Positions 20,082 to 35,927 of a stretch of 38,988 bases of DNA are shown piece after piece (position 1 is the first letter of the stretch; every line of letters begins with the position of its first letter). A model generated the notes under the pieces. It was given only the letters and a program-made list of their open reading frames with translations, was not told the DNA's origin and made no database searches. The position numbers and the translations under genes were made by a program. The stretch is from Methanobacteriota archaeon (GTDB taxonomy: Archaea; Thermoplasmatota; Poseidoniia; Poseidoniales; Poseidoniaceae), in assembly GCA_002722135.1 (NCBI GenBank), contig PBKJ01000012.1, positions 39,902 to 78,889 of the forward strand, written 5' to 3'.

Positions 20082-20086
20082 ATGGA

Positions 20087-20627: not shown

Positions 20628-21044
20628 TCAATCGGCCAACCCTGCGGCACGAATGGCCCGCCATCCACCCCACACCGACCACACGTCGACGTAGCCCATG
20701 TCCCGCAAGGACGCCCCGGCAATGGCGCTACGAAATCCCCCGCCGCAGTAGAGCACAACGCGCCGATTCACATCGGGCACCAAGGCCTCAATGTCCCGTT
20801 CCAGCACCCCTTTCGAGAGGTGGACGGCACCCGGAAGATGGCCGCGTTCAAACTCATGCACCTCCCGCACGTCAATGATGACGCCGGCGGCACCCTTGTT
20901 CAGCATGTCCGCAAGTGCAGGGCCATCGCACTCGCTCACCACAGCACGGCACGCCTCGACACGCGCCAAGAAGCGTGGTGGGTGCGCTTTCGCATGGGCG
21001 ATTCGGTCGGCGTCCATGCCGCGGGAGTGGAGCATCAGGCTCAT
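20628..21044 (-). CDS. Rhodanese-domain sulfurtransferase
   Basis: A 138-residue protein with one rhodanese domain. A short N-terminal helix (MDADRIAHAKAHPPRFLARV) precedes IIDVREVHEFERGHLPGAVHL, the CH2A motif. The active-site loop is YCGGGFRS with the catalytic C100, and WGGWRAIRAAGL ends the domain. Such proteins carry persulfide sulfur for cofactor or tRNA thiolation, or detoxify sulfur compounds. The active loop C-G-G-G-F-R fits a sulfurtransferase rather than an arsenate or phosphatase form. It is divergent from the SPOUT methyltransferase gene with only 23 nt between starts; later in-frame ATGs are possible. Confidence 0.85.
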   Translation of the reverse strand: MSLMLHSRGMDADRIAHAKAHPPRFLARVEACRAVVSECDGPALADMLNKGAAGVIIDVREVHEFERGHLPGAVHLSKGVLERDIEALVPDVNRRVVLYCGGGFRSAIAGASLRDMGYVDVWSVWGGWRAIRAAGLAD

Positions 21045-21067
21045 GACCGCTTCGACGATGGCCCCTC

Positions 21068-21781
21068 ATGCAGCGGCAAGGCATCGAGGCGGCGGAAGCG
21101 GCCTTGGCCGCCGGTGAAGCCGCGGCCATGTTGGTGCTCAAGGCCCACGATCAGCGCACGGCGGAACTGTGCAGCGCGGCGAAGGACGCTGGCATCCCCG
21201 TGCATGAGGTGACGGAACGTGACATGTGGCGCATGGCCTGGCCCGGAAGCGAGGCGCCCCCCACCGTGTTGACGTTGGTGGGCCGGAACCCGGAAGCACG
21301 GAACCTCGACGAGCTGACGGCCCGCGGTGGGTTGCTCCTCTGCCTTGATGGCGTGTCCTACGCAGGCAACATGGGCTTCTCTGTACGCACCGCGGAAGTT
21401 GCCGGTGCGACGGGTGTTATCCTCGCCACGCCAGCACCCATCCCGGGGCGAGCATGGAAGGATCTGCGTCACAGCAGCATGCAGGCCACGCGGTTCATCC
21501 CGGTCGTGGAAGCCAACATCGAGGAGGCCATCGCATCAGCCAAAACAGAAGGATTCCGCATCGTGGCGGTTGAAGACGTTGGTAGCCACGACCTGCCAGA
21601 CGTGGATTTGACTGGAGACGTGATGCTGATCATCGGCGCCGAAGCGGAAGGGGTCAGCCAAGCGGCGCTTGAGGCTGCAGATGCTGTCGTCCGCTTGCCC
21701 ATGCACGGCTTTGTTCCGTCCTACAACCTGCAGGTGGCGGTGGCCTGCGCTTGCGTGGAAGCCGCCCGTCAGCGGCGGTGA
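21068..21781 (+). CDS. SPOUT-family (TrmH/SpoU) RNA 2'-O-methyltransferase
   Basis: A 237-residue RNA methyltransferase that uses S-adenosylmethionine. The N-terminal 90 residues form a small substrate-binding domain. The SPOUT domain has motif 1 GVSYAGNMGFSVRTAEVAGATGVIL (N101 and catalytic-type R107), motif 2 LIIGAEAEGVSQAALEAAD, and motif 3 VRLPMHGFVPSYNLQVAVA, which forms the trefoil knot. The family modifies tRNA or rRNA riboses; the target position cannot be read from the sequence. Its stop lies 35 nt before the conserved operator of the next gene, so the ABC transporter genes are probably transcribed separately. No good ribosome-binding site is seen, consistent with a leaderless start. 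Confidence 0.88.
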   Translation: MQRQGIEAAEAALAAGEAAAMLVLKAHDQRTAELCSAAKDAGIPVHEVTERDMWRMAWPGSEAPPTVLTLVGRNPEARNLDELTARGGLLLCLDGVSYAGNMGFSVRTAEVAGATGVILATPAPIPGRAWKDLRHSSMQATRFIPVVEANIEEAIASAKTEGFRIVAVEDVGSHDLPDVDLTGDVMLIIGAEAEGVSQAALEAADAVVRLPMHGFVPSYNLQVAVACACVEAARQRR

Positions 21782-21815
21782 CGGCCAAACGCTTCTTTGG
21801 CTCCCGAGGAAGGAG

Positions 21816-21833
21816 TTTTAGGGAAGACGAAAT
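21816..21833 (+). promoter_or_regulatory. Conserved 18-bp element (copy 1), probable operator of the phnC-like operon
   Basis: TTTTAGGGAAGACGAAAT ends 25 nt before the ATG at 21859. It matches the other two full copies at all 14 non-spacer positions. The CGAAAT part lies about 28 nt before the start, where BRE/TATA would be expected, so a bound repressor would block the promoter. The transcript is probably leaderless. Confidence 0.65.
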
Positions 21834-21858
21834 CCGACAAAGCGTGGACATCGAAGCG

Positions 21859-22515
21859 ATGCTGTTCACCCGCGGGCTGTCCGTGGGATACGACCATGCG
21901 TTGGTATCGAACATTGACTTGGACGTCTTTCCGGGCGACATCATCGGAATCATCGGGGCTTCAGGAATCGGAAAAACCACGATTTTGAGGACCTTGGCCG
22001 GCTTGATCCCCCCGTTCCGAGGCAGCCTCGAGCACTCCCTTGTGAAAAACGGAGAATTGGGCTACATCCCTCAGCGGCTTGGCCTCGTTCGTCACGCTTC
22101 CGTTGAACACAACGTCGCCTTGGGAGCGCGGGCCACTGCACGCAAGCCGCCGGCAGGCACCTCGAATCGTCAATGGAAAGCAACGGTCACCCGCGAAGCG
22201 ATCAATGCGATGGGGTTGACCGAGAAAACCCGTGAACCGGTCCGGCGGCTCTCAGGTGGTCAACAACGCCGTACCGCCACCGCACGCACCCTTGCCCAGC
22301 GGCCTCGCATCATCCTCGCCGATGAATTTCTCAGTGAACTCGATGCAGAAAACGTCGAGATGGTGTTTGGCGCCATCCACCGGCTTGTGAAGGAAGACGG
22401 CTCTGCCTTGGTGGTGGTCGAGCACAACGTCGAGCGCGCGTTCCGGTATTGCACGCGGGTGCTTCGGGTTCGCGACGGTCGACTGCACCCAGTTCAAGGC
22501 GGTGAGAGCGAATGA
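21859..22515 (+). CDS. PhnC-like ABC transporter ATP-binding protein
   Basis: The cytoplasmic ATPase of an ABC importer, 218 residues from the ATG at 21859. An upstream reading frame exists but would place the 18-bp element inside the gene. Walker A is GASGIGKT (residues 33-40), the signature motif is LSGGQQRR (131-138), Walker B is IILADEF with D155 and E156, and the H-loop is VVVEHNVE. The overall length and the PhnE-type partner permease place it in the phosphonate/phosphite (PhnC) group. However, the helical region (residues 90-110, RKPPAGTSNRQWKATV) is unusual. It overlaps the permease start by 4 nt (ATGA). The binding-protein gene is not adjacent but lies 4.8 kb away at 27211. The true substrate is uncertain; see the findings on the shared operator. 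Confidence 0.88.
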   Translation: MLFTRGLSVGYDHALVSNIDLDVFPGDIIGIIGASGIGKTTILRTLAGLIPPFRGSLEHSLVKNGELGYIPQRLGLVRHASVEHNVALGARATARKPPAGTSNRQWKATVTREAINAMGLTEKTREPVRRLSGGQQRRTATARTLAQRPRIILADEFLSELDAENVEMVFGAIHRLVKEDGSALVVVEHNVERAFRYCTRVLRVRDGRLHPVQGGESE

Positions 22516-23420
22516 ACCGGGGCACCCTCAAGATAGGGCTGGTGACGTCCGGCCTGCTGCTGCTGACGGTGGTGGTCCTGAACGATTTGGCCGTGGGACA
22601 CTGGTCGCGCTTTGAGGGGGGATGGGACAACCTTCGTCGTCTGGTCACAGAAAGCCTCTGGCCACCGGATTGGACGGTCCTGAAGGCACGCAATTACCCG
22701 CCCTGTGAAGCTGCCTTTGGTTTCATGTGTTCCAAAGCCTACCTTGGGATGCTTGAGACCCTCAAAATGGCCTTCGTAGGAACCGTGATTGGTTTCCTTG
22801 GAGCCATCGTGTTGGCGCCTTTGGCAGCAAGCAACCTCGCGCCTTCATGGGTCGGAGGGCCTGCCCGCCTCCTTTTGGCCGGCATGCGCAGCCTTCCCAG
22901 CATCATTTGGGCCATCCTCTTCGTGGCCATCGTTGGCCTGGGGCCGCTCGCTGGCGTTCTCGCCATGGCCTTCTACACGGTGGGCTACCTCGGCAAACTC
23001 CAGTTTGAGTCCTTTGAAGGGCTGGCCAACGGCCCCATCGAAGCTGCCCGAGCCATGGGGATGAACCGAACGGAGACCTTCCTTTTCGTGGTCGTTCCTG
23101 AATCTGCGAACGGGTTGATCAGCCAACTGTTGTTCATGTTCGAATACAACGTCCGGCACGGCAGCGTGCTTGGGTTGGTGGGGGCAGGTGGCATTGGGTA
23201 CTACCTGTCGTATTACCTTGGATTCCTGCTCTATGACGCCGTGATGGCGCTCATTCTGGTCATTTTCGTGGTCGTGGTCGCCATTGAAGCCGTCTCACGA
23301 CGGCTTCGTTCCTTCCTCTCAGAATCCGATGACGTGCCCAAAGCCAGTTGGATCTCCGTCCTCATGAGCCCCGGCCGTGCCGCGGCGGCTGACGCCACGT
23401 CGACGGACGCTGAGGTATGA
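22512..23420 (+). CDS. PhnE-like ABC transporter permease
   Basis: An integral membrane permease of 302 residues with about six helices. The first is an N-terminal signal-anchor-like helix (LKIGLVTSGLLLLTVVVL). The core (LKMAFVGTVIGFLGAIVLAPLAASN, SLPSIIWAILFVAIVGLGPLAGVLAMAFYT) is that of the PhnE/BPD_transp_1 family. The EAA coupling loop is GPIEAARAMGMNRTETFLFVVVPES. RSLPSIIWAILF and VGAGGIG are strong PhnE-type signatures. The start overlaps the ATPase gene (ATGA), and the PIG-O-like gene follows after 9 nt, so all three form one operon. A cytoplasmic C-terminal tail of about 35 residues is present. Confidence 0.9.
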   Translation: MNRGTLKIGLVTSGLLLLTVVVLNDLAVGHWSRFEGGWDNLRRLVTESLWPPDWTVLKARNYPPCEAAFGFMCSKAYLGMLETLKMAFVGTVIGFLGAIVLAPLAASNLAPSWVGGPARLLLAGMRSLPSIIWAILFVAIVGLGPLAGVLAMAFYTVGYLGKLQFESFEGLANGPIEAARAMGMNRTETFLFVVVPESANGLISQLLFMFEYNVRHGSVLGLVGAGGIGYYLSYYLGFLLYDAVMALILVIFVVVVAIEAVSRRLRSFLSESDDVPKASWISVLMSPGRAAAADATSTDAEV

Positions 23421-23429
23421 GGTGGGAGG

Positions 23430-26018
23430 GTGAGCGAACGCGGCCTCACGGCCCTACTCATCGCCCTGATAACGGTGCCCCTGCTGGCCCACACGGCTCC
23501 CTACGTCTATGGCAATCCCAAGGAGCCGAGCACGGTCTTTGCTGCACCTGAAAACCACGAACCGCTCAGCGAAGGCGTGGTGTTGATCCTCCTCGATGGG
23601 GTGGGTGAAAGCATCATGCTTGACGAAGCCAAGATGCCCAAGTTGCACGACCGTTTGACCGGCAGCGCTGTGCTTTCCCTCACGACGGGACCCATCACCC
23701 TCTCGGCCACAGCGACGAGCGAGATGATGACGGGCGTTCCGAACGCGCCGGTTGATGGGTTCAGAAATTTCAGGTTGAGTCATCCAGGAGGCACCGACCC
23801 ATGGCTGAGTGCAGCGGAGGACCCGCGTTACTCCGTGGGCATGGTCGGCTCCTACGTCATGGGGAACCTCTACGACCCCTTCCCTGAGATCGAATTTGTC
23901 AACACGTTCGGCGGCAACGGCGACTACTACGAAGGGGACGCTGAAACGACGCGGCTGGGACTGGAATGGCTCGAAGAAAGACGGCACAACGTCATGGCTT
24001 TGCATTATTCTGGAACAGACAAAGTCGGGCACCATTGGGGCATTGAAACCGACATCTATCACGAAAAGTTGCTCGACGTTGACGGCCAAGTCGATGAGGT
24101 GCTCAACGCCCTGCCGTCGGGATGGACGGCCATCGTCACGGCCGACCACGGGATGACCTCAACCGGAAGCCACGGTTCGTCTGAGGCCGTGACGCGGGAA
24201 GTGGCCGCCGTGCTCATCGGCGCAGGGGTGCGTCAGGGCGTCACCCATGATGGGCACCAGCGCGACCTTGCCGCCCTTCTCCCAGCGTTGCTTGACCTGC
24301 CCTTCCCTGCCCAACTGCACGGTCAAATCCCGCTCGATGCGCTGGCCCTTCTTCCCGGGGAATCCGAACGGTTGGAGGCATGGAATTGGCAGGCGGCCGT
24401 CGAACGGGCCACCTTCCATCAGGTTCAGGACGGCGGTCCGCCGCTCAATACATCGACCATCGAATGGTCACGTGTCCAAGGCGATGAAGGCCTGAACAGG
24501 CCCACTGACGTGGCGCTTTCGGCCCTGACGTGGGCCGTGTTGCTCGGGCTTGCGGCCCGTTGGGCACATCGGCGATACGGCGGAGGCTGGTTTGGGCTGC
24601 TCGCGGGTGGTGCTGGATTGATCGTGCTCCTTTCCGCTCAAGCCTCCCTTGGTTGGTCTGCGATGGTCCCACGCGGCCTTGGAGCTGTGGCGGCTGCAGG
24701 GTTGACGCGTCTTGCGCTGGCGCCTGACGGAGCCTGGACGGAGGGGCATGCTCGTGCTGACCGCTGGGAGGTCGGTGGCCTGCTCGGACTGATGCTCCTC
24801 GTGCTCCTCTTTGGCGATGCGAGCCAAGCCATCGTGGTGGGGTGCATGGGAAGCGTGGGGGTGTTGGCGTTCAGGGCGGGGCAAAACCGGCCCTTGCCTT
24901 CGTGGAATGCTGCAGCGCCTGCCGTGGGGGCCGTGCTGGTGCTTCTTGCCGCATCCTATGGCAGCTTGAGGGTCTGGTTCGTGCTTCCGGTCTTGTTTGG
25001 ATGGGGCCTTGGCAGGGTTGTGGAACACCTACGAGAATCTCCATCGATTGGAGCCCTCGATTGGACCGCCGGCATGACCGCCATGGCTGCCCTCGGACTG
25101 CTGCTTCCTCATCGTCGAATCTTGGACGGAAACCTGTTGCTCGAGTTGGTACGGATGGATCCATTCGGAGACGCCGTTAGTGGAGTGTTCTCGTTGGGCA
25201 TCCTCGCCCTGACTGCTGGCGTTTGGACCTTGCACGTGCACGGGCGCATTCGCATGCGCCAAAATGCACTGATGCTCGGGATGTTGATCGCCGTCATGGC
25301 GGTTCGCTTTGCCAGGGCCACCCTCGTGGACTGGATGGCCTTGGCCGTGTTGCTGGTGGTGTACATCACGGCGGCCAGGGACGTGTTGGATGCGTCGTCT
25401 TCAGGGACGTTGCCCAGAGGCATGTTCGAGGCCGCGTTGACGGGCCACATGCTGTTGATTTGGGGGCCTTGGGCTGCCTTGAGCAGCCTGTGCGTGCTTG
25501 TCATCACCCCACGTTTGGTGAAGGCGATGGAGCGAAAGCAGGTCACACGGTACCTTTGGGTCACACACGCCGTGCTTCCGTGGGTGCTCGTGGCAACGTG
25601 GTGGACCATGCTCGGCCAGGTGGACGGCGTGCAAACGTGCCATGAGGGGTTATGCCCGTACCCCAGAGAACTCGATCCTGGAACCGTGGTGCTGAACGGG
25701 GGGTATGTGGGAGCCCGAGAGAATCCCTCCGACCAGTGGATTGGCATGATGGTGGTGACGCCGTTGCTGGCCGTCATTGGGTCCTTGTGCTGGGCGTTCA
25801 GCCACGCAGGTGTTGATCTGCGCCCTTACCTCACTTTGCAGGGGCTGCTCATGGTCGGCTGCTTGGCCACGTTGGCCTTTGCACCGTCCTATCCACGGTT
25901 GGTGTTTGCACTGTCCTACAACGCCCTCTTTGCCGCGTTGCAGGTGATGGTCGGCGCGGCAGTGGTCCTGCTGGTAATGCGGCAGGAACGAAGGCATCAG
26001 ATGGCGCTCACTGCGTAG
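23430..26018 (+). CDS. PIG-O-like phosphoethanolamine transferase / alkaline-phosphatase-fold phosphodiesterase with multi-helix membrane domain
   Basis: An 862-residue membrane enzyme with a GTG start 4-5 nt after GAGGTGG. An N-terminal helix leads to an outward alkaline-phosphatase-superfamily domain (about 45-340). Metal and nucleophile positions are visible: D56 in LILLDGVG, a Thr in GPITLSATATSEMMTG, D197 and H201 in SGTDKVGHHWG, D239 and H240 in TADHGMTSTGSHG, and H248. These closely follow the eukaryotic GPI ethanolamine-phosphate transferases PIG-O and PIG-G. Residues 360-855 form a long series of about 12 or more membrane helices, as in that family. Its reaction is probably transfer or removal of a phosphodiester head group outside the membrane. 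Co-transcription with PhnC/PhnE-like genes could mean it releases a phospho-compound or decorates a lipid or glycan. The substrate is unknown. Confidence 0.8.
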   Translation: MSERGLTALLIALITVPLLAHTAPYVYGNPKEPSTVFAAPENHEPLSEGVVLILLDGVGESIMLDEAKMPKLHDRLTGSAVLSLTTGPITLSATATSEMMTGVPNAPVDGFRNFRLSHPGGTDPWLSAAEDPRYSVGMVGSYVMGNLYDPFPEIEFVNTFGGNGDYYEGDAETTRLGLEWLEERRHNVMALHYSGTDKVGHHWGIETDIYHEKLLDVDGQVDEVLNALPSGWTAIVTADHGMTSTGSHGSSEAVTREVAAVLIGAGVRQGVTHDGHQRDLAALLPALLDLPFPAQLHGQIPLDALALLPGESERLEAWNWQAAVERATFHQVQDGGPPLNTSTIEWSRVQGDEGLNRPTDVALSALTWAVLLGLAARWAHRRYGGGWFGLLAGGAGLIVLLSAQASLGWSAMVPRGLGAVAAAGLTRLALAPDGAWTEGHARADRWEVGGLLGLMLLVLLFGDASQAIVVGCMGSVGVLAFRAGQNRPLPSWNAAAPAVGAVLVLLAASYGSLRVWFVLPVLFGWGLGRVVEHLRESPSIGALDWTAGMTAMAALGLLLPHRRILDGNLLLELVRMDPFGDAVSGVFSLGILALTAGVWTLHVHGRIRMRQNALMLGMLIAVMAVRFARATLVDWMALAVLLVVYITAARDVLDASSSGTLPRGMFEAALTGHMLLIWGPWAALSSLCVLVITPRLVKAMERKQVTRYLWVTHAVLPWVLVATWWTMLGQVDGVQTCHEGLCPYPRELDPGTVVLNGGYVGARENPSDQWIGMMVVTPLLAVIGSLCWAFSHAGVDLRPYLTLQGLLMVGCLATLAFAPSYPRLVFALSYNALFAALQVMVGAAVVLLVMRQERRHQMALTA

Positions 26019-27184
26019 ACGCCACCCGTCCAACTGGACACCAGAATGGCGCCGTCTTCCGCCACCGCCAAGCCCACGATGAACAGGTTCGTTGTGGCGA
26101 TAAGGGTGGATTCGATGCCCGAATCGCCGGGATGAGCCACCCAAACCTCGCCTGAGCAAAAGTCGCCGTAGAGGAACCCGCCGGTGGGCGCCAGCACGGA
26201 CGGCTCAAGCCATGGACCACCGAGAATGGAACAGCGGCCGTCCTCATGGCCGTAGGTCAAGACCGGGTCGACCAGACCCTCCTCTGGCTCAGTGAGCGGT
26301 GTGTCGCAGGGTGCGTCGGCCGAGAACGGCATGTGCCCTTCGCGTTCGTTCCATCCAAAATTGGTCGGATCATCCCACGACGGAATGTGGTTCACTTCCT
26401 CCCAACACCGTTGGCCAACGTCGGCGATCCACAATCCTCCGGTTGAATCTAGGGCCATGCGGAACGGATTGCGAAGACCATGGTGAAGCAGGAGCTCATC
26501 GTGGTCGCCGGAAACGTTGCTTGCGGGTACAACTGAACCGTTGTCGATGGAGAAGTGGAGGATGCCGCCAAGCAGCGAGGAGGTGTTTTGCCCGTGCCCG
26601 TAGGGGTCGTTGGAACCTCCACCATCGCCCACGGACAACAGGAAACTGCCGTCCGCCAACCTGATCAGGTCGGCTCCGTTGTGGTTGCGTTTGACCTGTG
26701 GAAGCCGCAGCACAACCTCTGGAACGGCGTCCAGACCTTGCTCAAGGTCGAGGACGGCCACCACCACATCCGACACGTGTGAAGGGTCGCAAGGGCCTGC
26801 CTCGACGTACACGATCAGGGCTTGATTGGTGCTTTCGTTGGCGTTCATGGCTTCGAAGGCAAGCAGGCCCTGTTCGTTGTGGCAGGTGCTCACCAATGAG
26901 GTCAGGTTGACCAAGATTTGTGCCTCGTTCTCTGCCCAACGAACGATGGTCCCGTCCAGCATGCTGACGATGACGTCGGCTCCAAGAGGAGCGATGTCAA
27001 TCACTGCAGCCGACGTCTCCAGACGCAGATCGCAGCTGAGGTTGTGTCCTGACGTGAGGTCACAACCGCTGATTGGCTCTGGCTCTGGCCACTCAAACGT
27101 TGGAGGAGATTCCTCCTCCGCAGGGCCGAGGCACCCGCTCAGCACGGGCAAGACCAGCATCAAGGCCAACACGAATGGGCGCAT
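25997..27184 (-). CDS. PQQ-type sugar dehydrogenase-like lipoprotein (GSDH/HHIP beta-propeller)
   Basis: A 395-residue exported lipoprotein. The signal peptide ends in a lipobox (LVLPVLSGC, C18). The body is a six-bladed propeller of the glucose/sorbosone dehydrogenase family, with segments DIAPLGADVIVSMLDGTIVRW, GDGGGSNDPYGHGQNTSSLLGGILHF, HGLRNPFRMALDSTGGLWIADVGQRCWEEVNHI, and TNFGWNEREGH. These match the PQQ- and calcium-binding GDGGxxxDPxxxxQ, RNPxG and NYGW patterns. Several family members do not oxidise sugars, so enzymatic activity is uncertain. It overlaps the PIG-O-like gene tail to tail by 22 nt. It shares the strand of the PhnD-like gene, 26 nt downstream, and is probably in the same transcript. 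Confidence 0.82.
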   Translation of the reverse strand: MRPFVLALMLVLPVLSGCLGPAEEESPPTFEWPEPEPISGCDLTSGHNLSCDLRLETSAAVIDIAPLGADVIVSMLDGTIVRWAENEAQILVNLTSLVSTCHNEQGLLAFEAMNANESTNQALIVYVEAGPCDPSHVSDVVVAVLDLEQGLDAVPEVVLRLPQVKRNHNGADLIRLADGSFLLSVGDGGGSNDPYGHGQNTSSLLGGILHFSIDNGSVVPASNVSGDHDELLLHHGLRNPFRMALDSTGGLWIADVGQRCWEEVNHIPSWDDPTNFGWNEREGHMPFSADAPCDTPLTEPEEGLVDPVLTYGHEDGRCSILGGPWLEPSVLAPTGGFLYGDFCSGEVWVAHPGDSGIESTLIATTNLFIVGLAVAEDGAILVSSWTGGVYAVSAI

Positions 27185-27210
27185 GACTCTCCCTCGCCGG
27201 GTGCGTCCGT

Positions 27211-28332
27211 TCAGTTGGCGATTTTCTCATTAAAGTAGGCTTCAATCCCAGGCACGTTCTCGATGGAGTCACCGTAGGTCCCGAGGTGGGACTCGGTGTC
27301 AATGATGGTGAACCCTGGCGTGCTGAAGACGGCATCGAGGACGTCAAGGTCCGCTTGGCTGCCGCCGTCGTTTGGCCCGAGGCTCATCGTGCGGAGGGCT
27401 TCCTGCAGTGCGGTCACCTGTGCCGCGTCCATGTAGGCTGGGTTGAACATGACAGGATGGCTGGGGGCTCGTCCGAATCCGTCACCGCCGTTGGCGCTGT
27501 AGTTCACGCCGTGGAAATCCGCGGTGCTGTCGAAGTCGCCTTCGAAGCACCAGTCCTCGGGCGTCTCACCGCAGTAATCGGGAACGGTGGGGTCCTTGGC
27601 GAAGGAGATGTAGTCGGTGGCATCGCCGGTGCTGTGTTCAGCCAAGCATCGGAGGGAGCCGATGTACTTGTGATAGCGCGTGCCGCTGGAGGGAATGGAC
27701 GAATCCTCTGAGAAGTGGTTGCGGACCGTGTCGGTCAAGGAATCAATCGTATCTGGGTCACCGACCACTTCGACATAGCCGTTGCTGATCATGAAACCCA
27801 TCGGAAGCAGCATTCCGGAGCTGCCCAGGGCAGAGGTATGGCACGAGACCTTGCCTTCCATGAGGGCGAAGGGATCGGTGTCAGGGTCATCGTCAAGATC
27901 GGCCTGAGCGATGTCCGAGTCCACGTGGACCCATGCAATCGCCTTGTAGAAGGGGCGACCGTCTGCCTTCTGTTCAGCAGCGAGAACTTCAAGCCCGTGG
28001 GTTTGCCAGCTGAGCCATGCAGCTCCGCCGTCCATGAAGCCAATGTCAGCGTGTCCGAACCGCAAGGCCTCAATGGCGCCTGCAGCGCTGGTCACGGGGT
28101 AAATCTCAACCTCCATGTCCAGAAGTTCAGCAAGTCGGTCGGCAAACTCCTGGGGGTTTTCCTCCGTGTTCTGATACTCTTCTTTGGTCTCGAAGGCGAT
28201 CGTCAAGCAGTTGTCTTGGTCTTCGCAGGTTGGGAAGCTCACCGAGCTGGAAAGGCAACCCGAGAGCCCTGCTGAAACCATGACGAGGCACATCAGAAGG
28301 GCGTGAACAGTGGGAAGGGCGGCGCGAATCAT
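27211..28332 (-). CDS. PhnD-like ABC transporter substrate-binding lipoprotein
   Basis: A 373-residue extracellular lipoprotein. The signal peptide ends LMVSAGLSGC-like (C26 in LSGC). The type II binding-protein fold of the PhnD (phosphate/phosphite/phosphonate) family is shown by EALRFGHADIGFMDGGAAW, PFYKAIAWVHVDSDI, LMEGKVSCHTSALGSSGMLLPMGFM and the C-terminal TALQEALRTMSLG. It has an extra insert with cysteines (YIGSLRCLAEHSTGDATDY, YCGETPEDWCFEGDF) not typical of phosphonate binders. The usual serine/threonine phosphate loop is present only as SALGSSGM. It is separate from its probable ATPase and permease at 21859-23420 but shares the 18-bp operator with them. The promoter overlaps copy 2 of the element, and the mRNA is probably leaderless. 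Confidence 0.85.
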   Translation of the reverse strand: MIRAALPTVHALLMCLVMVSAGLSGCLSSSVSFPTCEDQDNCLTIAFETKEEYQNTEENPQEFADRLAELLDMEVEIYPVTSAAGAIEALRFGHADIGFMDGGAAWLSWQTHGLEVLAAEQKADGRPFYKAIAWVHVDSDIAQADLDDDPDTDPFALMEGKVSCHTSALGSSGMLLPMGFMISNGYVEVVGDPDTIDSLTDTVRNHFSEDSSIPSSGTRYHKYIGSLRCLAEHSTGDATDYISFAKDPTVPDYCGETPEDWCFEGDFDSTADFHGVNYSANGGDGFGRAPSHPVMFNPAYMDAAQVTALQEALRTMSLGPNDGGSQADLDVLDAVFSTPGFTIIDTESHLGTYGDSIENVPGIEAYFNEKIAN

Positions 28333-28354
28333 GGGCTGTCCAGAGGAGGTCTCT

Positions 28355-28372
28355 TTTTAGGGATTGCGAAAT
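28355..28372 (+). promoter_or_regulatory. Conserved 18-bp element (copy 2), over the phnD-like promoter
   Basis: TTTTAGGGATTGCGAAAT lies in the 139-bp divergent region. Read on the minus strand, its CCCTAAAA end (TAAAAA at 28359-28354) is centred about 25 nt before the phnD-like ATG at 28332. It can therefore serve as that gene's TATA box while also being the operator. Confidence 0.65.
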
Positions 28373-28379
28373 ATCCTGA

Positions 28380-28397
28380 TTTTCGTTCACCCTCAAC
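28380..28397 (-). promoter_or_regulatory. Degenerate fourth copy of the 18-bp element
   Basis: On the minus strand GTTGAGGGTGAACGAAAA agrees with the consensus at 11 of 14 fixed positions. It lies between the two full copies, in the opposite orientation. It may be a weaker co-operative site, or chance. Confidence 0.35.
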
Positions 28398-28423
28398 CAA
28401 GTTGCTAAGATGTCTTTTCTCAT

Positions 28424-28448: not shown

Positions 28449-28471
28449 CCAAATGCTGTTTCGGCCCGACC

Positions 28472-29734
28472 ATGACGAAGACCCTTCGTGCACTTGCCCT
28501 GACCCTGACTTTGCTGCTGGCCTCCCTCGCGGGCTGTGTCGCAGAAGACGAAACGAACGACGAAACTCCTGTGGACGAGAAGCCTGCCTTCTTGGATGCA
28601 TCCGACGCAGGTTACACCTACGCGTCCGACGTGGACAACCACCGTTCGCTGATGCTGGACCTCTGCGACATCAAGACCGCGGCCAGCGAAAGCGACTGGG
28701 ACACCGCCACCCAGATTTACATGAACGGCAAGAACGCTCAGAAGGACGACGGATCCTACCGAACGCTGGCCGGATTCGCTGCCGCCTCCGGCAAGAACCA
28801 CAACTACGACGCCTACTATGGTGTGGACGGCGCCATCGGCGGCCACATCATGCAGGCGCTGAACGGCGACGGTGACTTCGCCGGCACCTCGGACACCGTC
28901 CGCTACCAAGGCATCGCAAAGCTGACCGCCAACATGGGCATGGTCGGCTACACCATCCACGAGCTCAACGCCGCGGTGGCCAAGGCCGACGCCGGCAACA
29001 TCGACGACGACACGGGCGCGCCCCACAACTGGGACGAAGGATGGGCTTTCTTCCACGGACCGGATGAGCACTACGGTTGCTCTCCTGCTAAGGTCATGGA
29101 AAAGCGAGCCGCTGATTTCGGCACGGCCGACGCCGACGGCGTTGCTGCGACCTTCAAGGCCGCCGAGCAAGCCATGGTTGACGGACTCGCCGCCCTCCAG
29201 GCGGGCGACGAAGCCGGCTACGACGCCGCCACCGAGACCGTGATCAAGAACATCATCATCACCTACTCCCAGGCGACGCTGAAGTACACCTCGAAGATGG
29301 ACAGCACCGACAGCGCCGAGAAGTACCAAGCCGAAGGCTACGCCTTCTGGAAGACCATCGAGGCCTATGCCGCCCCATACACCGACGGTTGCTACAACAT
29401 GGCCGTTCACAAGGTCTTCATGATGGGCGACATCGACGCCTCGGCTTGTGACGCCTTCATCTGGACCAACGGCTCCATGGACAGCACCGGTACCAACGAC
29501 ACCTGCTACAACACCGTGACGCACCAAGTGTCCACGGACGTCAGCAACGAAACCGAGTGCGACGGCTACGCAGCCATGTACTTCCAGGACAAGTATGGCG
29601 CCGAGAAGATCAACGAGATCGTCAACCTGCAGGATGCGACCAAGCTCGGTACGTCCTACGACGTTGCACCTCACCTCGCACAGGTCTGGGCGCACTACGG
29701 CATCACTGCCGCAGACATCGGCTCGATGAGCTGA
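28472..29734 (+). CDS. FEA1/phytotransferrin-like iron-assimilation lipoprotein
   Basis: A 420-residue exported lipoprotein (LLLASLAGC lipobox, C22) with an acidic spacer after the cysteine. The body resembles the low-iron-inducible periplasmic FEA1 family: DSDWDTATQIYMNGKNAQK-like start (ASESDWDTATQIYMNGKN), YDAYYGVDGAIGGHIMQALNG, the helical TVRYQGIAKLTANMGMVGYTIHEL, and HNWDEGWAFFHGPDEHYGCSP. The histidine-, tyrosine- and aspartate-rich segments could bind iron with carbonate, as reported for algal phytotransferrins. The C-terminal part has paired cysteines (TDGCYNMAVHKV, DASACDAF, NDTCYN, ETECDGY). It heads the operon of surface protein, FecBCD-type transporter and HugZ, 51-57 nt before the next gene. 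A conserved operator and BRE/TATA lie upstream. The assignment is from remembered family motifs. Confidence 0.78.
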   Translation: MTKTLRALALTLTLLLASLAGCVAEDETNDETPVDEKPAFLDASDAGYTYASDVDNHRSLMLDLCDIKTAASESDWDTATQIYMNGKNAQKDDGSYRTLAGFAAASGKNHNYDAYYGVDGAIGGHIMQALNGDGDFAGTSDTVRYQGIAKLTANMGMVGYTIHELNAAVAKADAGNIDDDTGAPHNWDEGWAFFHGPDEHYGCSPAKVMEKRAADFGTADADGVAATFKAAEQAMVDGLAALQAGDEAGYDAATETVIKNIIITYSQATLKYTSKMDSTDSAEKYQAEGYAFWKTIEAYAAPYTDGCYNMAVHKVFMMGDIDASACDAFIWTNGSMDSTGTNDTCYNTVTHQVSTDVSNETECDGYAAMYFQDKYGAEKINEIVNLQDATKLGTSYDVAPHLAQVWAHYGITAADIGSMS

Positions 29735-29791: not shown

Positions 29792-32110
29792 ATGGAGCAA
29801 CGCGCCAAGCGCGCGCTCCTGCTCATGGTCGTCCTGCTGGGAGCAACACTCAGCGCGTCGGTTGCAGCAAGCGATGCTCCGGAGACCTACACCATCACAG
29901 GCCACGTCTTGCTCGAAAACGGGCAAGCCGCCGGCTCAAGCACGGTCCGTCTTGACGACCGCGGTTCGGTGATGACCGACCAAGGAACGTACGTCATCGA
30001 GGACGTCGCCCCGGGCCGGCATACGATCCGTGCATACTTCATGTCGGATGGACACGTTGCGATTTACCGAGAAATCATGGTCACAGGTGATGCATCGGTC
30101 GATTTCACCATCGGTCAAAACGTGGTGACAGCATCGGTTTCTGATCCTCAAGGAAATCCCTTGATCGGCGATCTTCGCACGCTTGGAGGCCCTTGGACGA
30201 GCGCTGATGGATGGACGGAGTTCGGACCGTTCCCAACCGGTACACTGGTCGAAGTCCAGGCATTGTTTGACGACGGTTCAACCGCCACCCATGCGGTCCG
30301 GTCCGACGGAGGGAAGATCGGTGAGCCCTCTCGAAACCACGTTCCTGTGACCCATGGGACCACAGGCGTCTACGGCTTTGTCCAGGATCAACTGGGGAAC
30401 CCTGTCGCAAACATCGACGTCACGACCGGGAGCCGCACGGCCACCACCCGAGACGATGGCATGTACAGCATGAATGGCCTCAGCACCACCGTGAACCACA
30501 CGTTCAGCTACACGCAACAGGGTCTGGAGGTGGCCGGAAACCAAAGTATCGTTCTCAATGGCACATCGGGATGGAAGAACCTCACGCTCGAACGGGCGTT
30601 GGTGCTTCCAGGAAACGTCTCTTTCACCACAGGAGCGAACGTGGTGTCCATGCAACCGTTCGTGATCGAGTGGACCACGGCCCAGCACGCCAACCGCTAC
30701 GTCCTCACGCTTGACGGGATTCCGATGTATGACGGCCCATCCACGGCCTTCACGTTCACGCCTCAAAGTGAGGGGGAACACCGATTTGGACTCGCGGCCT
30801 ACAACCCGAACGGTTCAACGGCAGCCTTCCAGGACCTGCTGATAATCGTCCTTCCCGAACAAGGCGAGAACGGGCATTGGACGGCTGGAATGCAGTGGAC
30901 CTACGATCAGACCTACACCCCTGCTGCTTCCGATGGCGTGCTTCGCCGAACCTACACCTGCCTCGGTACGGAAACCGTCTCGGACGCGTTCGGAGTCGAA
31001 CGTTCAACCTACCTTCTGGACGTCCATGACCCAAATTACCTGCCAGACGAACGATCCATGCGTTGGGTCGACGAAGAATCGCTCTTGGCCGTACGAAGCT
31101 ACTGGTCTGACGATCCTTCTTCATCGAATCAGTTCACCGATGCCAGCCTTGGCTGGACGTTCACCGACGAACAAGGCCAACCTTCCACCCTCATGAACGG
31201 ATCAACATCAGTATGGTTCAATCGGACCACAGTGATTGGTGTTCCTGGCCACCCAAACGGCTACGACGACACCAACAACACGATTTCCGTGGAAGAGGAT
31301 GTCTCCGTCACCACACCTGCAGGCTCTTTTTTGACCACGAAATACATCTTGACCGACGACGATGATGGTGTCGTCTCGTGGGAACTCTACTACAACGCCA
31401 CGGTCAGGAATTTCGTCAAGGTCGTTGACCGACTACCGGGTTCTCATTCTGACATGGTGGAGAAGGTGCTTGTCGCATTCGATGTGCCAACCGCTCCAGT
31501 CTTCATCATGGAATCCAGCCAAGTTTCGACACGGACCGTTGACCTTGAATGGGGTGCCTTCCCAGGCGCGGATCGGTATGTCGTCATCCATGACGGTGCC
31601 GAGATGTACAACGGCACCGCGACCAACCTGACCACCTCTGAGTTTGAAGACGGGACCTACACGTTCACCGTCGAGGCCATCATGGCCGACGGGCGACGAT
31701 TGGCCTCCGATGACCTGACGCTCGAAGTGACCTACGTCAGCCCAACCCCGACGTTTGATACGGGTCCAACCACGGCGGATGCAGAAGACGAAATTCAGCT
31801 GTCATGGTCGCACGATGCGGGGGTCACCTTCGTGCTTCTGCATGAGCGTCCTGACGGATCAATGGAGGAGGTGGAAGACCTCAACCTACGAACACACATG
31901 GCCGTCGTCGACGACGTCGGACGTCACCGGTTCCGCGTCAAAGCCATCGAAGCAGACGGGTCAACGTCTGAATGGTCAGAATCGGTCGTCGTGATGGTTG
32001 TAGAACCGAATGATGCCCCCGAACAAACCAACAACCCGTGGGTGATCATTGCCGGTGGACTGATCTTCTTGACCATCGGAATCCAACTGGTTAGGGGGCG
32101 CCCGTCATGA
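29792..32110 (+). CDS. Surface protein with carboxypeptidase-regulatory-like and FN3-like domains, C-terminal anchor
   Basis: About 772 residues from the ATG at 29792, which lies 8 nt after GGAGG; the ATG at 29786 is only 2 nt from that site. A signal peptide (ALLLMVVLLGATLSASVAA) is followed by carboxypeptidase-regulatory-like beta-sandwiches (YTITGHVLLENGQAAGSSTVRL near residue 30, VYGFVQDQLGNPVANIDVTT near residue 190). An FN3-like domain comes next, then a central unrecognised domain starting GHWTAGMQWTYDQTYTP (about 360-560). Two more FN3-like domains follow (VDLEWGAFPGADRYVVI, IQLSWSHDAGVTFVLL). The C-terminus has one membrane helix (WVIIAGGLIFLTIGIQLV). It overlaps the binding-protein gene by ATGA, so it belongs to the uptake operon. 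It may capture haem or an iron chelate at the cell surface; no binding motif proves that. Confidence 0.75.
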   Translation: MEQRAKRALLLMVVLLGATLSASVAASDAPETYTITGHVLLENGQAAGSSTVRLDDRGSVMTDQGTYVIEDVAPGRHTIRAYFMSDGHVAIYREIMVTGDASVDFTIGQNVVTASVSDPQGNPLIGDLRTLGGPWTSADGWTEFGPFPTGTLVEVQALFDDGSTATHAVRSDGGKIGEPSRNHVPVTHGTTGVYGFVQDQLGNPVANIDVTTGSRTATTRDDGMYSMNGLSTTVNHTFSYTQQGLEVAGNQSIVLNGTSGWKNLTLERALVLPGNVSFTTGANVVSMQPFVIEWTTAQHANRYVLTLDGIPMYDGPSTAFTFTPQSEGEHRFGLAAYNPNGSTAAFQDLLIIVLPEQGENGHWTAGMQWTYDQTYTPAASDGVLRRTYTCLGTETVSDAFGVERSTYLLDVHDPNYLPDERSMRWVDEESLLAVRSYWSDDPSSSNQFTDASLGWTFTDEQGQPSTLMNGSTSVWFNRTTVIGVPGHPNGYDDTNNTISVEEDVSVTTPAGSFLTTKYILTDDDDGVVSWELYYNATVRNFVKVVDRLPGSHSDMVEKVLVAFDVPTAPVFIMESSQVSTRTVDLEWGAFPGADRYVVIHDGAEMYNGTATNLTTSEFEDGTYTFTVEAIMADGRRLASDDLTLEVTYVSPTPTFDTGPTTADAEDEIQLSWSHDAGVTFVLLHERPDGSMEEVEDLNLRTHMAVVDDVGRHRFRVKAIEADGSTSEWSESVVVMVVEPNDAPEQTNNPWVIIAGGLIFLTIGIQLVRGRPS

Positions 32111-33210
32111 ACGAACCTCATCCAAGGAAGATGCTGGGTTCAGTCCAACTTGTGGCCATCCTGGTGCTTGCTTACGCGATGATTCACGTGGTCACGAACG
32201 AAACGGAACTTGCTGATGAGGGAGGCATCGCTGTCACCGACACCAGCGGTGAGGTGTTCACTTTTGATGCACCTCCTGACCGAATCGTGGTCTCGAACAC
32301 GTACGCCGCCACCGCCATGCGCATGCTCGACGCCGACATGGAATCGATCGTCGGGGTGAGTGGAGATTTCGAGGACAGCGAACTTTGGCCGGAACTCTCA
32401 GCTCGCCCTTGGGTGCAATTTTCTGCACATTCTGAAATTGACTATGAGGCCTTGCTGGACACGCGACCTGACGTGTACGTGGTCTTTGCCACCAACGGCA
32501 TGGTCGACACCGATGCCATCCGTGAGCGGTTGACTCCGCTGGGCATCGACGTGGTGGCGTTTGACTTCTACAAGTATGACGCCTTGCGCGAAGAGTTTCG
32601 GCAACTGGCCATCATGCTCGACCAAATGGAAGCCTATGATGCGCTGATGGGAGAATTCGACGCCATTGAAGCCACCATGAACGAGGCGCTTGGAGACCTT
32701 CGTGACGAGGACCGCCCCACCGTGATCATGGAACATCATGCTTCGCTCACCAGAGACCCTGTCGTGCTGACTGGAACCTCCCAATGGGACGACATCATCC
32801 GTATCGCAGGTGGAAGCAACGTCTTCAGCGATCTCCCCGGACACACCACGCACGTGGACATGGAAGCCATCCTGGATGCAGACCCGGACGTCATGATGTT
32901 TGACGGAATCACGTTCGAATTGGGTTACGGAAACAACGACCCAAACAGTGGCTGTCCAGAGCACTTTGATTTGATTGAGGGCCGCCCTGGATTCGATGCT
33001 CTTCAAGCCGTCAACAACGGTGAGTTGCATATTTTCTCAGGCGCGTTCGCCGGCCCGATGATGATTCATGGGCTTCCGTTCATCGCCGAACAATTCCACC
33101 CAGAACGCTTCGAAGAAGGCAGTGGTGAGGCCTCATTGGACGCATTTTTCGAAGACCACTTCGATCTACAGCGGACCGGCACCTTCCTGTGCACCGTTGG
33201 AGGCGAATGA
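32107..33210 (+). CDS. FecB/BtuF-type periplasmic-binding protein (haem, siderophore or cobalamin)
   Basis: A 367-residue binding protein of the type III (helical-backbone) class that serves FecCD/BtuCD permeases. The N-terminus has a hydrophobic helix (VQLVAILVLAYAMIHVV) without a lipobox, so it is probably a membrane-tethered form, unlike the lipoproteins elsewhere in the window. Family marks include PDRIVVSNTYAATAMRMLDA, VGVSGDFEDSELWPEL, IDYEALLDTRPDVYVVF, DDIIRIAGGSNVFSDLPGHTTHVDMEAILDADPDVMMF, and the C-terminal GLPFIAEQFHPERFEE. The substrate cannot be decided from sequence alone, but the HugZ gene in the operon favours haem or another iron compound. It overlaps the surface-protein gene (ATGA) and is followed by the permease after 1 nt. 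Confidence 0.88.
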   Translation: MNEPHPRKMLGSVQLVAILVLAYAMIHVVTNETELADEGGIAVTDTSGEVFTFDAPPDRIVVSNTYAATAMRMLDADMESIVGVSGDFEDSELWPELSARPWVQFSAHSEIDYEALLDTRPDVYVVFATNGMVDTDAIRERLTPLGIDVVAFDFYKYDALREEFRQLAIMLDQMEAYDALMGEFDAIEATMNEALGDLRDEDRPTVIMEHHASLTRDPVVLTGTSQWDDIIRIAGGSNVFSDLPGHTTHVDMEAILDADPDVMMFDGITFELGYGNNDPNSGCPEHFDLIEGRPGFDALQAVNNGELHIFSGAFAGPMMIHGLPFIAEQFHPERFEEGSGEASLDAFFEDHFDLQRTGTFLCTVGGE

Positions 33211-33211
33211 T

Positions 33212-34252
33212 GTGCCCGACGTGGTCGGTGCATACATCGAAGGTCAGCGAAAGCGCCTAGCCTCGCTCTTCATCGCCTCCGCTTTGACCCTCGTGGCCGC
33301 CCTTCTCTCAATGGGCTTCGGCTCTTCAGAAAGCCTGTCGATGGGCGCCACGCTCCGCCTCCTCTTCGGACTTCAGGCCTCAGAAGGGCTGCAACGAGAA
33401 ATCCTCCTCAACCTTCGCCTCCCGCGCGTGCTCGTGGCCCTCGCTGGAGGCGCTGCTCTCGCCATGGCCGGGACCATGATGCAAGGGGTGTTGGGAAACC
33501 CGCTGGTCTCCCCGTTGACGTTGGGCGTCGCCTCCGGCGCTGGGCTTGGGGCAGCCCTCGCCATCGTTCTCGACATCTCGGTGTTCGGGCAGGCAGAATT
33601 CGCCATCCTCGGAAATGCATTCCTCTTCGCCATGATGGTGGTTGCGATCATCATCAAACTCGGCGACATGTCCACAGTCACGGCAGAATCCTACATCCTC
33701 GTCGGGATCGCCATCACGTTCATCGCCGGCGCCATGGTCCAAACGATGCAATATTTTGCCACCGATGCGCAAATCTCTCAACTGACCCACTGGAGTTTCG
33801 GCAGTTTGTCCCGTCCGAGCCTCCAACACGCGTTGTGGATTTCGCTGTTCGTGGTGGTCATGCTTCCTTCGGGACTGGTCGCGGCTTGGGATTTGAACAC
33901 CCTCGCCGTCGGGGGTGACGATTTCGCGGCAGCGACAGGCGTCGATCCAAGGTCCACCCGACGGTCCGTGCTGATTCTTTCAGCAACGTTGACGGCGGTG
34001 GTCATTTCGTTCACCGGCATCATTGGTTTCCTGGGCCTCGTCGCACCACATGTGTCCCGTCTGCTGGTCGGCAACGATTACCGAACCTTGTTGCCGTTCT
34101 CTGCCGTCATGGGTGCAGCGGTCTTGCTTGTTGCCGACACCATCGGCCGGACCTTGTTTGCGCCCATTGTGCTCCCTGTTGGCGTCATGCTTTCGGTCAT
34201 CGGTGGACCGTTTTTCCTCTACCTCTTGCTGTCAAGGAGGGGCCGCGCATGA
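33212..34252 (+). CDS. FecCD/BtuC-type ABC transporter permease
   Basis: An integral membrane permease of 346 residues with about nine to ten helices. The GTG start at 33212 follows a GGAGG by 9 nt and begins PDVVGAYIEGQRKRLASLF; earlier in-frame starts would lie inside the binding-protein gene. Family motifs are NLRLPRVLVALAGGAALAMAGTMMQGVLGNPLVSPLTLGVASGAGLGA and GIIGFLGLVAPHVSRLLVGNDYRTLLPFSA, the classic FecCD signature, plus the late DTIGRT-like region (LVADTIGRTLFAPIVLPVGV). It would form a homodimer with two copies of the ATPase encoded next. It overlaps that gene by 4 nt. The substrate class includes haem, siderophores and cobalamin. Confidence 0.93.
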   Translation: MPDVVGAYIEGQRKRLASLFIASALTLVAALLSMGFGSSESLSMGATLRLLFGLQASEGLQREILLNLRLPRVLVALAGGAALAMAGTMMQGVLGNPLVSPLTLGVASGAGLGAALAIVLDISVFGQAEFAILGNAFLFAMMVVAIIIKLGDMSTVTAESYILVGIAITFIAGAMVQTMQYFATDAQISQLTHWSFGSLSRPSLQHALWISLFVVVMLPSGLVAAWDLNTLAVGGDDFAAATGVDPRSTRRSVLILSATLTAVVISFTGIIGFLGLVAPHVSRLLVGNDYRTLLPFSAVMGAAVLLVADTIGRTLFAPIVLPVGVMLSVIGGPFFLYLLLSRRGRA

Positions 34253-35076
34253 GCAACGTCTTGCTCAAAGCTGAGCGGCTGGAGTTCTCCTTTGGGGAAC
34301 GCTTGGTCCTCAATGGCGTTGATTTGACCGTGCAACCCGGTGAAGTGGTGGCCTTGCTCGGCCGAAATGGTGCAGGAAAGACGACGTTGCTGAAAATGCT
34401 GAACGGTTTGTTGACGCCTGCACGCGGAACCGTCATGCTTGGAAATCGAACGCTCGATGAACTCAGTTTGCCCGAACGTGCCAGACGTTCAGCCTACGTG
34501 CCTCAGAGCATCACAAGCGCCTTTCCAATGCGCGTCATCGATGTCGTGCTGCTCGGTCGTCGTCCATATGTCACATGGCGGCTCAGCAAGAACGACATCA
34601 AAATCGCGTCAGACACCCTGGCCACCTTGGGCTTGGACGCGTTCGCCTTCCGTCGGTTCACAGAACTGTCCGGTGGTGAACGTCAACAGGTGGTGATGGC
34701 CAAAGCGCTGGCTCAGGAAGCATCCTTGCTGTTGCTCGACGAACCCACAAGCGATTTGGATTTGAACAATCAAATCGGTGTGATGAAACGCATCCGAAGT
34801 GTGGTGGACGACATGGACCAGCGCGCCGCGGTCATTGTCATGCACGACCTCAACGCAGCGGCTGCATACGCCGACCGTGTGGTCCTGATGCATGAAGGGC
34901 GTGTTGAAGCGGTTGGCCGCCCTGAAGAGGTGCTGACCGAGGCCAATCTTGCCAAGGTGTTCATGGTGGAAGCCAGCATCGACGTGGCGCCGACTGACGG
35001 ACGCCTACGAATCCATGTGCACGACGAGGTCAGCGCCTCGGTCATGCACCATACAAAGCAAGGTGATGAACGATGA
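34249..35076 (+). CDS. FecE/BtuD-type ABC transporter ATP-binding protein
   Basis: The ATPase partner of the upstream FecCD permease, 275 residues. Walker A is GRNGAGKT (38-45, K44), the Q-loop is in YVPQSITSAFPM, the signature is LSGGERQQVVMAKAL (140-154), Walker B is LLLLDEPTSDLD (D164, E165), and the H-loop histidine is in VIVMHDLN. GRRPYVTW and the RAAVIVMHDLNAAAAYADRVVLM stretch are typical of iron-siderophore, haem and B12 importers. A strong AAGGAGGGG site precedes the ATG, which overlaps the permease stop. The C-terminal 30 residues (IDVAPTDGRLRIHVHDEVSAS) form the small extra strand segment seen in this group. Its stop overlaps the HugZ start. Confidence 0.94.
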   Translation: MSNVLLKAERLEFSFGERLVLNGVDLTVQPGEVVALLGRNGAGKTTLLKMLNGLLTPARGTVMLGNRTLDELSLPERARRSAYVPQSITSAFPMRVIDVVLLGRRPYVTWRLSKNDIKIASDTLATLGLDAFAFRRFTELSGGERQQVVMAKALAQEASLLLLDEPTSDLDLNNQIGVMKRIRSVVDDMDQRAAVIVMHDLNAAAAYADRVVLMHEGRVEAVGRPEEVLTEANLAKVFMVEASIDVAPTDGRLRIHVHDEVSASVMHHTKQGDER

Positions 35077-35927
35077 GCGACAGGACAACACAACAGGACA
35101 AGCGTGCTGAACAAGAGGCACACAAGGAAGCCCATGACGGTGAGGACCCCTCGACCAACGTTGCAGCTTGGCTGCATGAAACGCGAGCTGCGACCCTCTC
35201 AACGTTGGCCGTGAAGCCGGGCATCGAAGGATTCCCAATCGGATCGATTGTTCCGTTTGCCATCGATGAAACCGGCCGGCCGTTCATTTTGGTGGCGAGC
35301 ATCGCTGCGCACACACGCAACATCGACGCTGACCCACGGGCTTCCCTGTTCATTTCAGATCCTGAAGCCAAAGGCGACCCGCAATCAAGCTGGCGTGCGT
35401 CCTTGCTTGGCGAGATGCGGGTTGTGGCCGTGGAAGGTGAGGAGGTTGATGTGTCAGAAGAGCGAATCGACCGGGTCACAGCCGAAGAGCACGCTCATTT
35501 GTTGGCGCGGTACGTGGAACGGGTCCCTGCGGCTGAATCCTACGTGAAGGTGCACAACTTCAGTTTCTACCGAATGAGCACCATCGAACGCATCCGCTAC
35601 ATCGCGGGCTTTGGTCGCATTTGTTGGATCCCCGGTCGCCAATACATGGAAGCCGTCTCAGATGCTGAACTTGCAGAAGCAGCGCCCGGAGCCATCGAGC
35701 ACATGAACGACGACCATGTCGACGCCATGGTGACCATCGTCAAGGGCCATCGCGGCATTGACGTGGAGTCGGTGAACATGGTCGACCTCGACCCAAACGG
35801 CATGATGCTGGAAACGAACGAACCCCATCACCTGATGTACGTCTCGTTCGAGAACCGCATCACGGCTGATAGCATGCGGACAGAGATCATCAACAGCGTG
35901 GTCGCCGCCAGGAAGGCCATCGGTTGA
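35073..35927 (+). CDS. HugZ/HutZ-type haem-utilisation protein (PNPOx-like + DUF2470)
   Basis: A 284-residue cytoplasmic protein combining a split-barrel, pyridoxamine-oxidase-like domain (about residues 27-190) with a C-terminal DUF2470 domain (about 200-284). In HugZ and HutZ proteins this architecture binds haem and opens the ring to release iron. Visible marks are NVAAWLHETRAATLSTLAV, FPIGSIVPFAIDETGRPFILVASIAAHTRNI, ASLFISDP, GFGRICWIPG, and in the second domain EHMNDDHVDAMVTIVKGH, with histidines suited to haem ligation. An unusually charged 25-residue N-terminal tail precedes the barrel. It overlaps the ATPase gene (ATGA) and ends the operon, so imported haem would be degraded here. 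Other flavin or haem-binding roles of PNPOx-DUF2470 proteins are possible. Confidence 0.85.
   Translation: MSDRTTQQDKRAEQEAHKEAHDGEDPSTNVAAWLHETRAATLSTLAVKPGIEGFPIGSIVPFAIDETGRPFILVASIAAHTRNIDADPRASLFISDPEAKGDPQSSWRASLLGEMRVVAVEGEEVDVSEERIDRVTAEEHAHLLARYVERVPAAESYVKVHNFSFYRMSTIERIRYIAGFGRICWIPGRQYMEAVSDAELAEAAPGAIEHMNDDHVDAMVTIVKGHRGIDVESVNMVDLDPNGMMLETNEPHHLMYVSFENRITADSMRTEIINSVVAARKAIG

Follow-up and report, generated by a model that had tools for sequence, protein, structure and literature searches.

We examined a gene in a stretch of 38,988 nucleotides (contig PBKJ01000012.1 of assembly GCA_002722135.1, positions 39,902 to 78,889; hereafter the window) from an archaeon of Marine Group II (Candidatus Poseidoniaceae). 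The gene lies at 23430..26018 on the forward strand, begins with GTG and encodes a protein of 862 amino acids, which we placed in subfamily A of a family resembling ethanolamine-phosphate transferases (EPT-like). Its own genome holds a single full-length intact copy, intact homologues with 36–90% identity were found in other Poseidoniaceae and the catalytic residues were invariant in 54 sequences, indicating that the open reading frame is a real gene and not a chance one. An AlphaFold2 model of the protein (predicted local distance difference test score (pLDDT) 85.6, predicted template-modelling score 0.83) showed one N-terminal helix, then an alkaline-phosphatase-fold domain, then a long run of membrane helices. 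This is the architecture put forward by an earlier reading of the letters made without database searches (the original prediction), whose open reading frame and quoted motifs were likewise present exactly as claimed. All on the forward strand, the parts were assigned as a signal-anchor helix at residues 3–27 (23436..23510; model and hydropathy), a catalytic domain of the alkaline phosphatase superfamily at about residues 41–312 (23550..24365; VIA-align Z 24–27 to PafA, NPP and ENPP structures and profile matches to PIG-O, PIG-G and PIG-N) and a multi-helix membrane domain at about residues 358–861 (24501..26012; conservation and confident models, pLDDT 85.6 for the whole protein and 86.6 for the domain modelled alone).

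The catalytic domain was found to carry every element of the two-metal site that defines the alkaline phosphatase superfamily (D, a T/S nucleophile, D..H, DH and H). The residues D56, T90, D197, H201, D239, H240 and H248 were invariant across the alignment of 54 homologues, and a smaller alignment of 21 agreed. The first metal-ligand motif is D56-G57 (23595..23600, +), and the predicted nucleophile is T90 (23697..23699, +), a putative carrier of the phospho-head group that aligns with the first Thr of PPTTT in PIG-O. Further metal ligands were D197 and H201 in DKVGH (24018..24032, +), within SGTDKVGHHWG at residues 194–204, and D239-H240 with H248 in DHGMTSTGSH (24144..24173, +), within TADHGMTSTGSHG at residues 237–249. 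Two other motifs recall PIG-O: TGVPNAPVDGFRNF at residues 101–114 (23730..23771, +), held in common with TGSLPTFIDAGSNF, and GSYVMGNLY at residues 140–148 (23847..23873, +), which reads GDYVWKDLY in subfamily B and there resembles the GDDTWKDLF of PIG-O. The former holds an invariant N113, at what we take to be the position of the substrate Asn of NPPs. The protein exceeded the Pfam cut-offs of PF01676 and PF01663, through which Pfam recognises general families only, and the fold comparison of the catalytic domain by VIA-align gave Z up to 26.9. Collectively, sequence and model indicate a complete two-metal site with a Thr nucleophile, an anchor helix and a large membrane domain.

We then compared the catalytic domain with the glycosylphosphatidylinositol (GPI) ethanolamine-phosphate transferases PIG-N, PIG-O and PIG-G, which are regarded as zinc enzymes with active sites of the alkaline phosphatase type (PMC9168625). 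For human PIG-O, PIG-G and PIG-N and yeast Las21 and Mcd4 we used reconstructed sequences, whose lengths and matches to PF19316 and PF04987 indicated good quality, PIG-O falling under the PF19316 cut-off. A catalytic-domain profile of the archaeal family scored 74.6 bits with PIG-O, 73.9 with PIG-G, 64.9 with PIG-N, 60.8 with Mcd4 and 58.5 with Las21, and generic PF01663 proteins from archaea of this phylum (L146–L175) stayed at or below 27 bits. Beyond these, a subtilase fusion scored 50 bits, and two archaeal proteins of another Thermoplasmatota family (L142 and L143, hereafter the f43 proteins) scored 78.5 and 87.5 bits, about as high as the GPI enzymes. The best sequence match in the PDB was ENPP7 (42.3 bits, A1 profile); on the scale of that search the A1 profile gave PIG-G 67.3 and PIG-O 65.1 bits. 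Furthermore, HHalign matched the catalytic domains of the family and the GPI enzymes at 99.8% over 258–269 columns. By these measures PIG-N, PIG-O and PIG-G are specifically nearer to this domain than generic nucleotide pyrophosphatases are.

The likeness went beyond the residues of the superfamily. In PIG-O and PIG-G (yeast Gpi13 and Las21) the catalytic domain was colinear with that of the family over about 260–270 columns, and they had in common TGxxPxxxDxxxNF, which follows the nucleophile, DHGMTxxGxHG and, in subfamily B, GDxxWKDL[YF]P; in both cases one anchor helix precedes the catalytic domain and many membrane helices follow it. The two eukaryotic proteins are longer, at 1089 and 983 amino acids against 862, and the archaeal genes differ in being found beside genes for iron uptake or for the synthesis of serine lipids. 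PIG-N and Mcd4, of similar architecture and with the same type of catalytic domain, scored below PIG-O and PIG-G (60.8–64.9 bits) and lack the GDxxW and TGxxP..NF motifs. The f43 proteins (566–609 amino acids) are membrane proteins of the same superfamily with a shorter membrane part and with the motif variants GCPDWWLLL and SDHGHRDVGGHGG. The ENPP/NPP phosphodiesterases and the PafA phosphatase resemble the family in fold and metal-site residues, whereas they scored no more than 42.3 bits by profile and have no multi-helix membrane domain. The bacterial transferases of lipid head groups and their relatives (EptA, LtaS and YejM/PbgA) belong to the same superfamily and are likewise membrane-anchored with an outward catalytic domain; YejM was found by Foldseek, and the template-modelling score to its domain was moderate (about 0.5). 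In proteins of this type five membrane helices are placed ahead of the catalytic domain.

Phylogenetic analysis agreed with the profile scores. The tree was rooted on generic archaeal phosphodiesterases, and ENPP, iPGM and bacterial EptA-type sequences were left out. A branch supported at 100/100 (95/81 in an earlier tree) separated the archaeal family, all five eukaryotic enzymes and both f43 proteins from the generic archaeal PF01663 proteins. The Marine Group II sequences formed one clade apart from all five eukaryotic sequences (99/98). Several orders within the joint branch were allowed: with two long branches left out, the approximately unbiased test gave alternatives p values of 0.10–0.34 (0.11 for a clade of the family with PIG-O and PIG-G, 0.10 for one with all the eukaryotic enzymes and 0.34 for eukaryotic monophyly), and a second figure for the family with PIG-O and PIG-G alone, 0.19, also allowed that clade. 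An apparent rejection of an exclusive clade of the family and the GPI enzymes (p 0.01, in the tree with the long branches) fell once the two were removed (p 0.10). Membership of the NPP/ENPP group was not indicated, as ENPPs scored under PIG-O and PIG-G and generic PF01663 proteins stood outside the branch, in a tree that held no ENPPs. These results place the catalytic domain in the same branch as the GPI ethanolamine-phosphate transferases, as an archaeal family of its own with at least two subfamilies. By catalytic domain it is closely related to the GPI enzymes and not a demonstrated PIG-O orthologue, because the Marine Group II sequences form their own clade, the f43 proteins are nearly equal in similarity and the tree allows several branching orders.

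For the membrane domain a different picture was obtained. It holds a conserved loop, WWTxLGQVxGxQxCxEGxCPxPRELDPG..GGYxG, at about residues 724–762. A Pfam scan matched neither the PIGO_PIGG (PF19316) nor the PigN (PF04987) membrane domain, a weak test since human PIG-O itself reached only 19.4 bits, and scanning 21 family members with PF04987 returned a single match with E 0.77. Membrane-domain profiles with reversed controls gave background scores only against the human and yeast GPI enzymes, and HHalign likewise found no similarity; PIG-O and PIG-G also failed against PIG-N, so that the power was low. Foldseek with the membrane domain alone found nothing in the PDB below E 0.11 (best Z 6.7), and, as a search with PIG-O and PIG-N found no such chain there, this result appears to cover other structures only.

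No C13 transamidase (PIG-K/Gpi8; PF01650) was found above its cut-off in any of 38 Poseidoniaceae genomes, with control matches in Caulobacter, and therefore a canonical GPI pathway in Poseidoniaceae is not supported by these genomes. The PIG-M-type mannosyltransferase (PF05007) gave no match, nor did it in any control genome. The original prediction, which had described a PIG-O-like homologue in an archaeon not expected to have a GPI pathway, was borne out on the kinship of the catalytic domain with PIG-O, PIG-G and PIG-N, and not on orthology with PIG-O in particular; the search for PIG-K that it suggested gave the negative result above. The phylogeny that it proposed yielded the joint branch and left the order inside unsettled. 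Of the two outcomes that it took jointly to speak against it, placement with generic nucleotide pyrophosphatases was not seen, generic archaeal phosphodiesterases falling outside the joint branch (100/100), and for the other, a membrane domain without similarity to those of the GPI enzymes, the comparisons had too little power to tell.

Of 96 Poseidoniaceae genomes sampled, about half contained the family, as did many named metagenome-assembled genomes of Candidatus Poseidoniales (Marine Group II), the majority of them from Poseidoniaceae. A search across the phylum (389 genomes) showed that it is almost confined to Poseidoniales, with two weaker matches in another family. The at least two subfamilies, each carried by part of the genomes only, are A, the type in the window, with identities from about 33% upward, and B, at about 26%; a deeper member, L145, occurs in the sister family. 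A plasmid search gave zero matches, and a literature search, whose coverage of subscription journals was thin, found no description of the archaeal family.

The genomic surroundings of subfamily A were examined next. In the window the enzyme gene follows a PhnC-type ATPase gene of the ATP-binding cassette (ABC) class (21751..22515, +; NCBIfam TIGR02315, 1.8e-36, under its cut-off) and a PhnE-type permease gene (22512..23420, +; TIGR01097, above its cut-off), the latter by a gap of 9 bp, and the three form an apparent operon. A convergent neighbour encodes a GSDH-type beta-propeller lipoprotein (25997..27184, −; PF07995, 1.7e-15), with conserved linkage, and beyond it lies a PhnD-type binding lipoprotein with transferrin-like sequence (27211..28332, −; PF12974, 8.5e-22; PF00405, 8.4e-8), which co-occurs with subfamily A. 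These are followed by a FEA1-related iron-assimilation lipoprotein (28472..29734, +; NF038033, 7e-91, above its cut-off), an iron-complex ABC transporter of the FecB/FecCD/ATPase type (32107..35076, +; PF01497, PF01032 and PF00005) and a HugZ-like protein with a CREG beta-barrel and DUF2470 (35073..35927, +). The binding protein cleared the Pfam Transferrin cut-off, and in the PDB it was nearer to lactoferrin (8e-11, 45 bits) than to the phosphite and phosphonate binding proteins PtxB and PhnD (8e-5 and 0.0025). Because of this and of the FEA1, FecBCD-type and HugZ-like genes, the region 21751–35927 looks like an iron-uptake island, and we gave up reading the neighbouring transporter, the Phn-like importer of the original prediction, as a phosphonate importer in favour of iron.

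The island genes (PhnD-type, GSDH-type, PhnC/PhnE, FEA1, FecB/FecCD/ATPase and HugZ-like) adjoin subfamily A across many genera, in shuffled order. We found a close form of the transferrin-like binding protein in all 20 genomes with subfamily A (in one as a fragment) and in 1 of the 76 others among the 96 (Fisher p about 1e-19, a value that overstates independence as the genomes are related). In one genome (G047) the two genes are far apart, suggesting that the co-occurrence does not reflect linkage alone. Many other Poseidoniaceae have more distant versions of the binding protein, frequently with two domains in tandem (about 700 amino acids). At or near subfamily A in 16 loci (among L038–L069) there is also a gene for a GpsA-type glycerol-3-phosphate dehydrogenase, the unusual lipid-backbone enzyme of Marine Group II.

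Subfamily B has other neighbours. In about 12 loci the very next gene, in the opposite orientation, encodes a CDP-alcohol phosphatidyltransferase that scored best against archaetidylserine and phosphatidylserine synthases, under the curated cut-offs; in two of these loci (L097 and L103) the remaining neighbours differ. Phosphatidylserine decarboxylase (Psd) was matched in 78 of the 96 family genomes, making phosphatidylethanolamine-type lipids plausible in Poseidoniaceae. According to published work, Marine Group II has no glycerol-1-phosphate dehydrogenase and may make mixed membranes (PMC6962369, PMC6461757). A first screen had scored Psd as absent from the genus of the window, which was dropped when a second search found a divergent homologue (L179, G000:C9:96422-97222). 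This protein has RLAFMSTTP where the LGS self-cleavage motif is expected and DLQVHRAP in place of DVHVNRSP, so that the conserved His is also missing, and it is probably inactive. Another donor must hence be considered in that genus.

We propose that the enzyme is a membrane-embedded, zinc-type member of the alkaline phosphatase superfamily that acts as a transferase of phospho-head groups from lipid to surface, the best explanation of these data and one to which we give an even chance of being right. The catalytic domain presumably faces the cell exterior. A membrane phospholipid would be bound by the membrane domain and its phosphodiester attacked by Thr90, by the mechanism of the superfamily; the phospho-head group would then stay covalently attached to Thr90 until it is passed to a hydroxyl on a lipid, glycan or lipoprotein of the surface. 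Where Psd is intact, the group transferred may be ethanolamine phosphate, and in the genus of the window a different one. The activity of subfamily A would serve the outer-surface iron-uptake machinery co-inherited with the gene, and that of subfamily B may be tied to the synthesis of phosphatidylserine-type lipids. Several points weigh against this proposal. The same fold and metal site also serve hydrolases (NPP, PafA) and would suit hydrolysis as well as transfer, the neighbours of subfamily A are iron genes with no lipid or glycan genes among them, the low-power comparisons detected no membrane-domain kinship with the GPI enzymes, and the degenerate Psd speaks against a phosphatidylethanolamine donor in the window's genome.

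The strongest competitor is an ecto-phosphodiesterase or phosphatase that hydrolyses phosphodiesters or phosphate esters at the surface (nucleotides, phospholipid head groups or iron-phosphate complexes in organically bound form), the products or liberated iron being imported by the neighbouring ABC transporters. Its structural neighbours, the NPP/ENPP hydrolases and PafA (Z 24–27), the invariant N113 and the position of the gene 9 bp behind transporter genes, with importer linkage in many genomes, make such a hydrolase a serious possibility, if a less probable one. The sequence, however, is nearer to the GPI transferases than to NPP, PafA or iPGM, such hydrolases are usually soluble or anchored by one helix whereas about 500 conserved residues form the membrane part here, and subfamily B is linked to lipid synthesis and not to uptake. 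We regard it as unlikely that the enzyme is instead a lipid-anchoring helper, making an ethanolamine-bearing lipid or glycan that anchors the surface proteins of the island in the manner of haloarchaeal archaetidylethanolamine (PMC7157517). The association of subfamily B with a synthase gene for serine lipids, the wealth of surface proteins in the island and the proposed role of archaetidylethanolamine as anchor nucleophile in Haloferax suggest it; no exosortase-family match was found above cut-off in the 38 family genomes, the island surface proteins look like Cys-lipobox lipoproteins that need no such anchor, and Psd is degenerate in the window's genus. Least probable of all is a true PIG-O/PIG-G orthologue, transferred between eukaryote and archaea and acting on a GPI-like glycolipid: colinear catalytic domains, the identical GDxxWKDL[YF]P pattern in subfamily B, the similar architecture and a clade that the tree tests allow (0.11 and 0.19) are set against the separate Marine Group II clade, the f43 proteins of about equal profile score, the PIG-type membrane domain undetected in a low-power test and the lack of a C13 transamidase match above cut-off in the 38 family genomes.

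Anchoring by GPI is characteristic of eukaryotes, and its enzymes have few known relatives in prokaryotes. Asgard archaea are reported to have relatives of Cwh43, a GPI-remodelling protein (PMC10704324), and archaetidylethanolamine has been proposed as protein anchor or anchor nucleophile in the archaeosortase anchoring of Haloferax (PMC7157517), so that there is precedent for relatives of GPI enzymes in prokaryotes. A widespread archaeal family whose catalytic domain stands beside those of PIG-O, PIG-G and PIG-N could help to trace such relatives and offers, as an enzyme open to testing, a prokaryotic reference for the origin of the GPI head-group step. The family is also of interest for the membrane lipids and the iron acquisition of Marine Group II, among the most abundant planktonic archaea. 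More tentatively, we suggest an undescribed archaeal family of lipid-to-surface phospho-head-group transferases that stands near the prokaryotic root of the GPI transferases and has a branch that may have been recruited to a surface complex for iron uptake of the transferrin/FEA1 type.

Two further observations concern the loci. Directly upstream of the subfamily A island, at 15864–21781 of the window, lies a rhodanese-L15e-MBL-PKD block, and loci L070–L076, L086, L087, L090 and L098 of other genomes have subfamily B between SpoU and this block. The same block thus flanks subfamily A here and subfamily B elsewhere, suggesting that both paralogues use one neighbourhood in different lineages. 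Finally, a contig labelled as the Deltaproteobacteria single cell AH-558-G13 (L095) was found to hold a Poseidoniales subfamily B locus, and this genome is probably a mixed or mislabelled single-cell genome.

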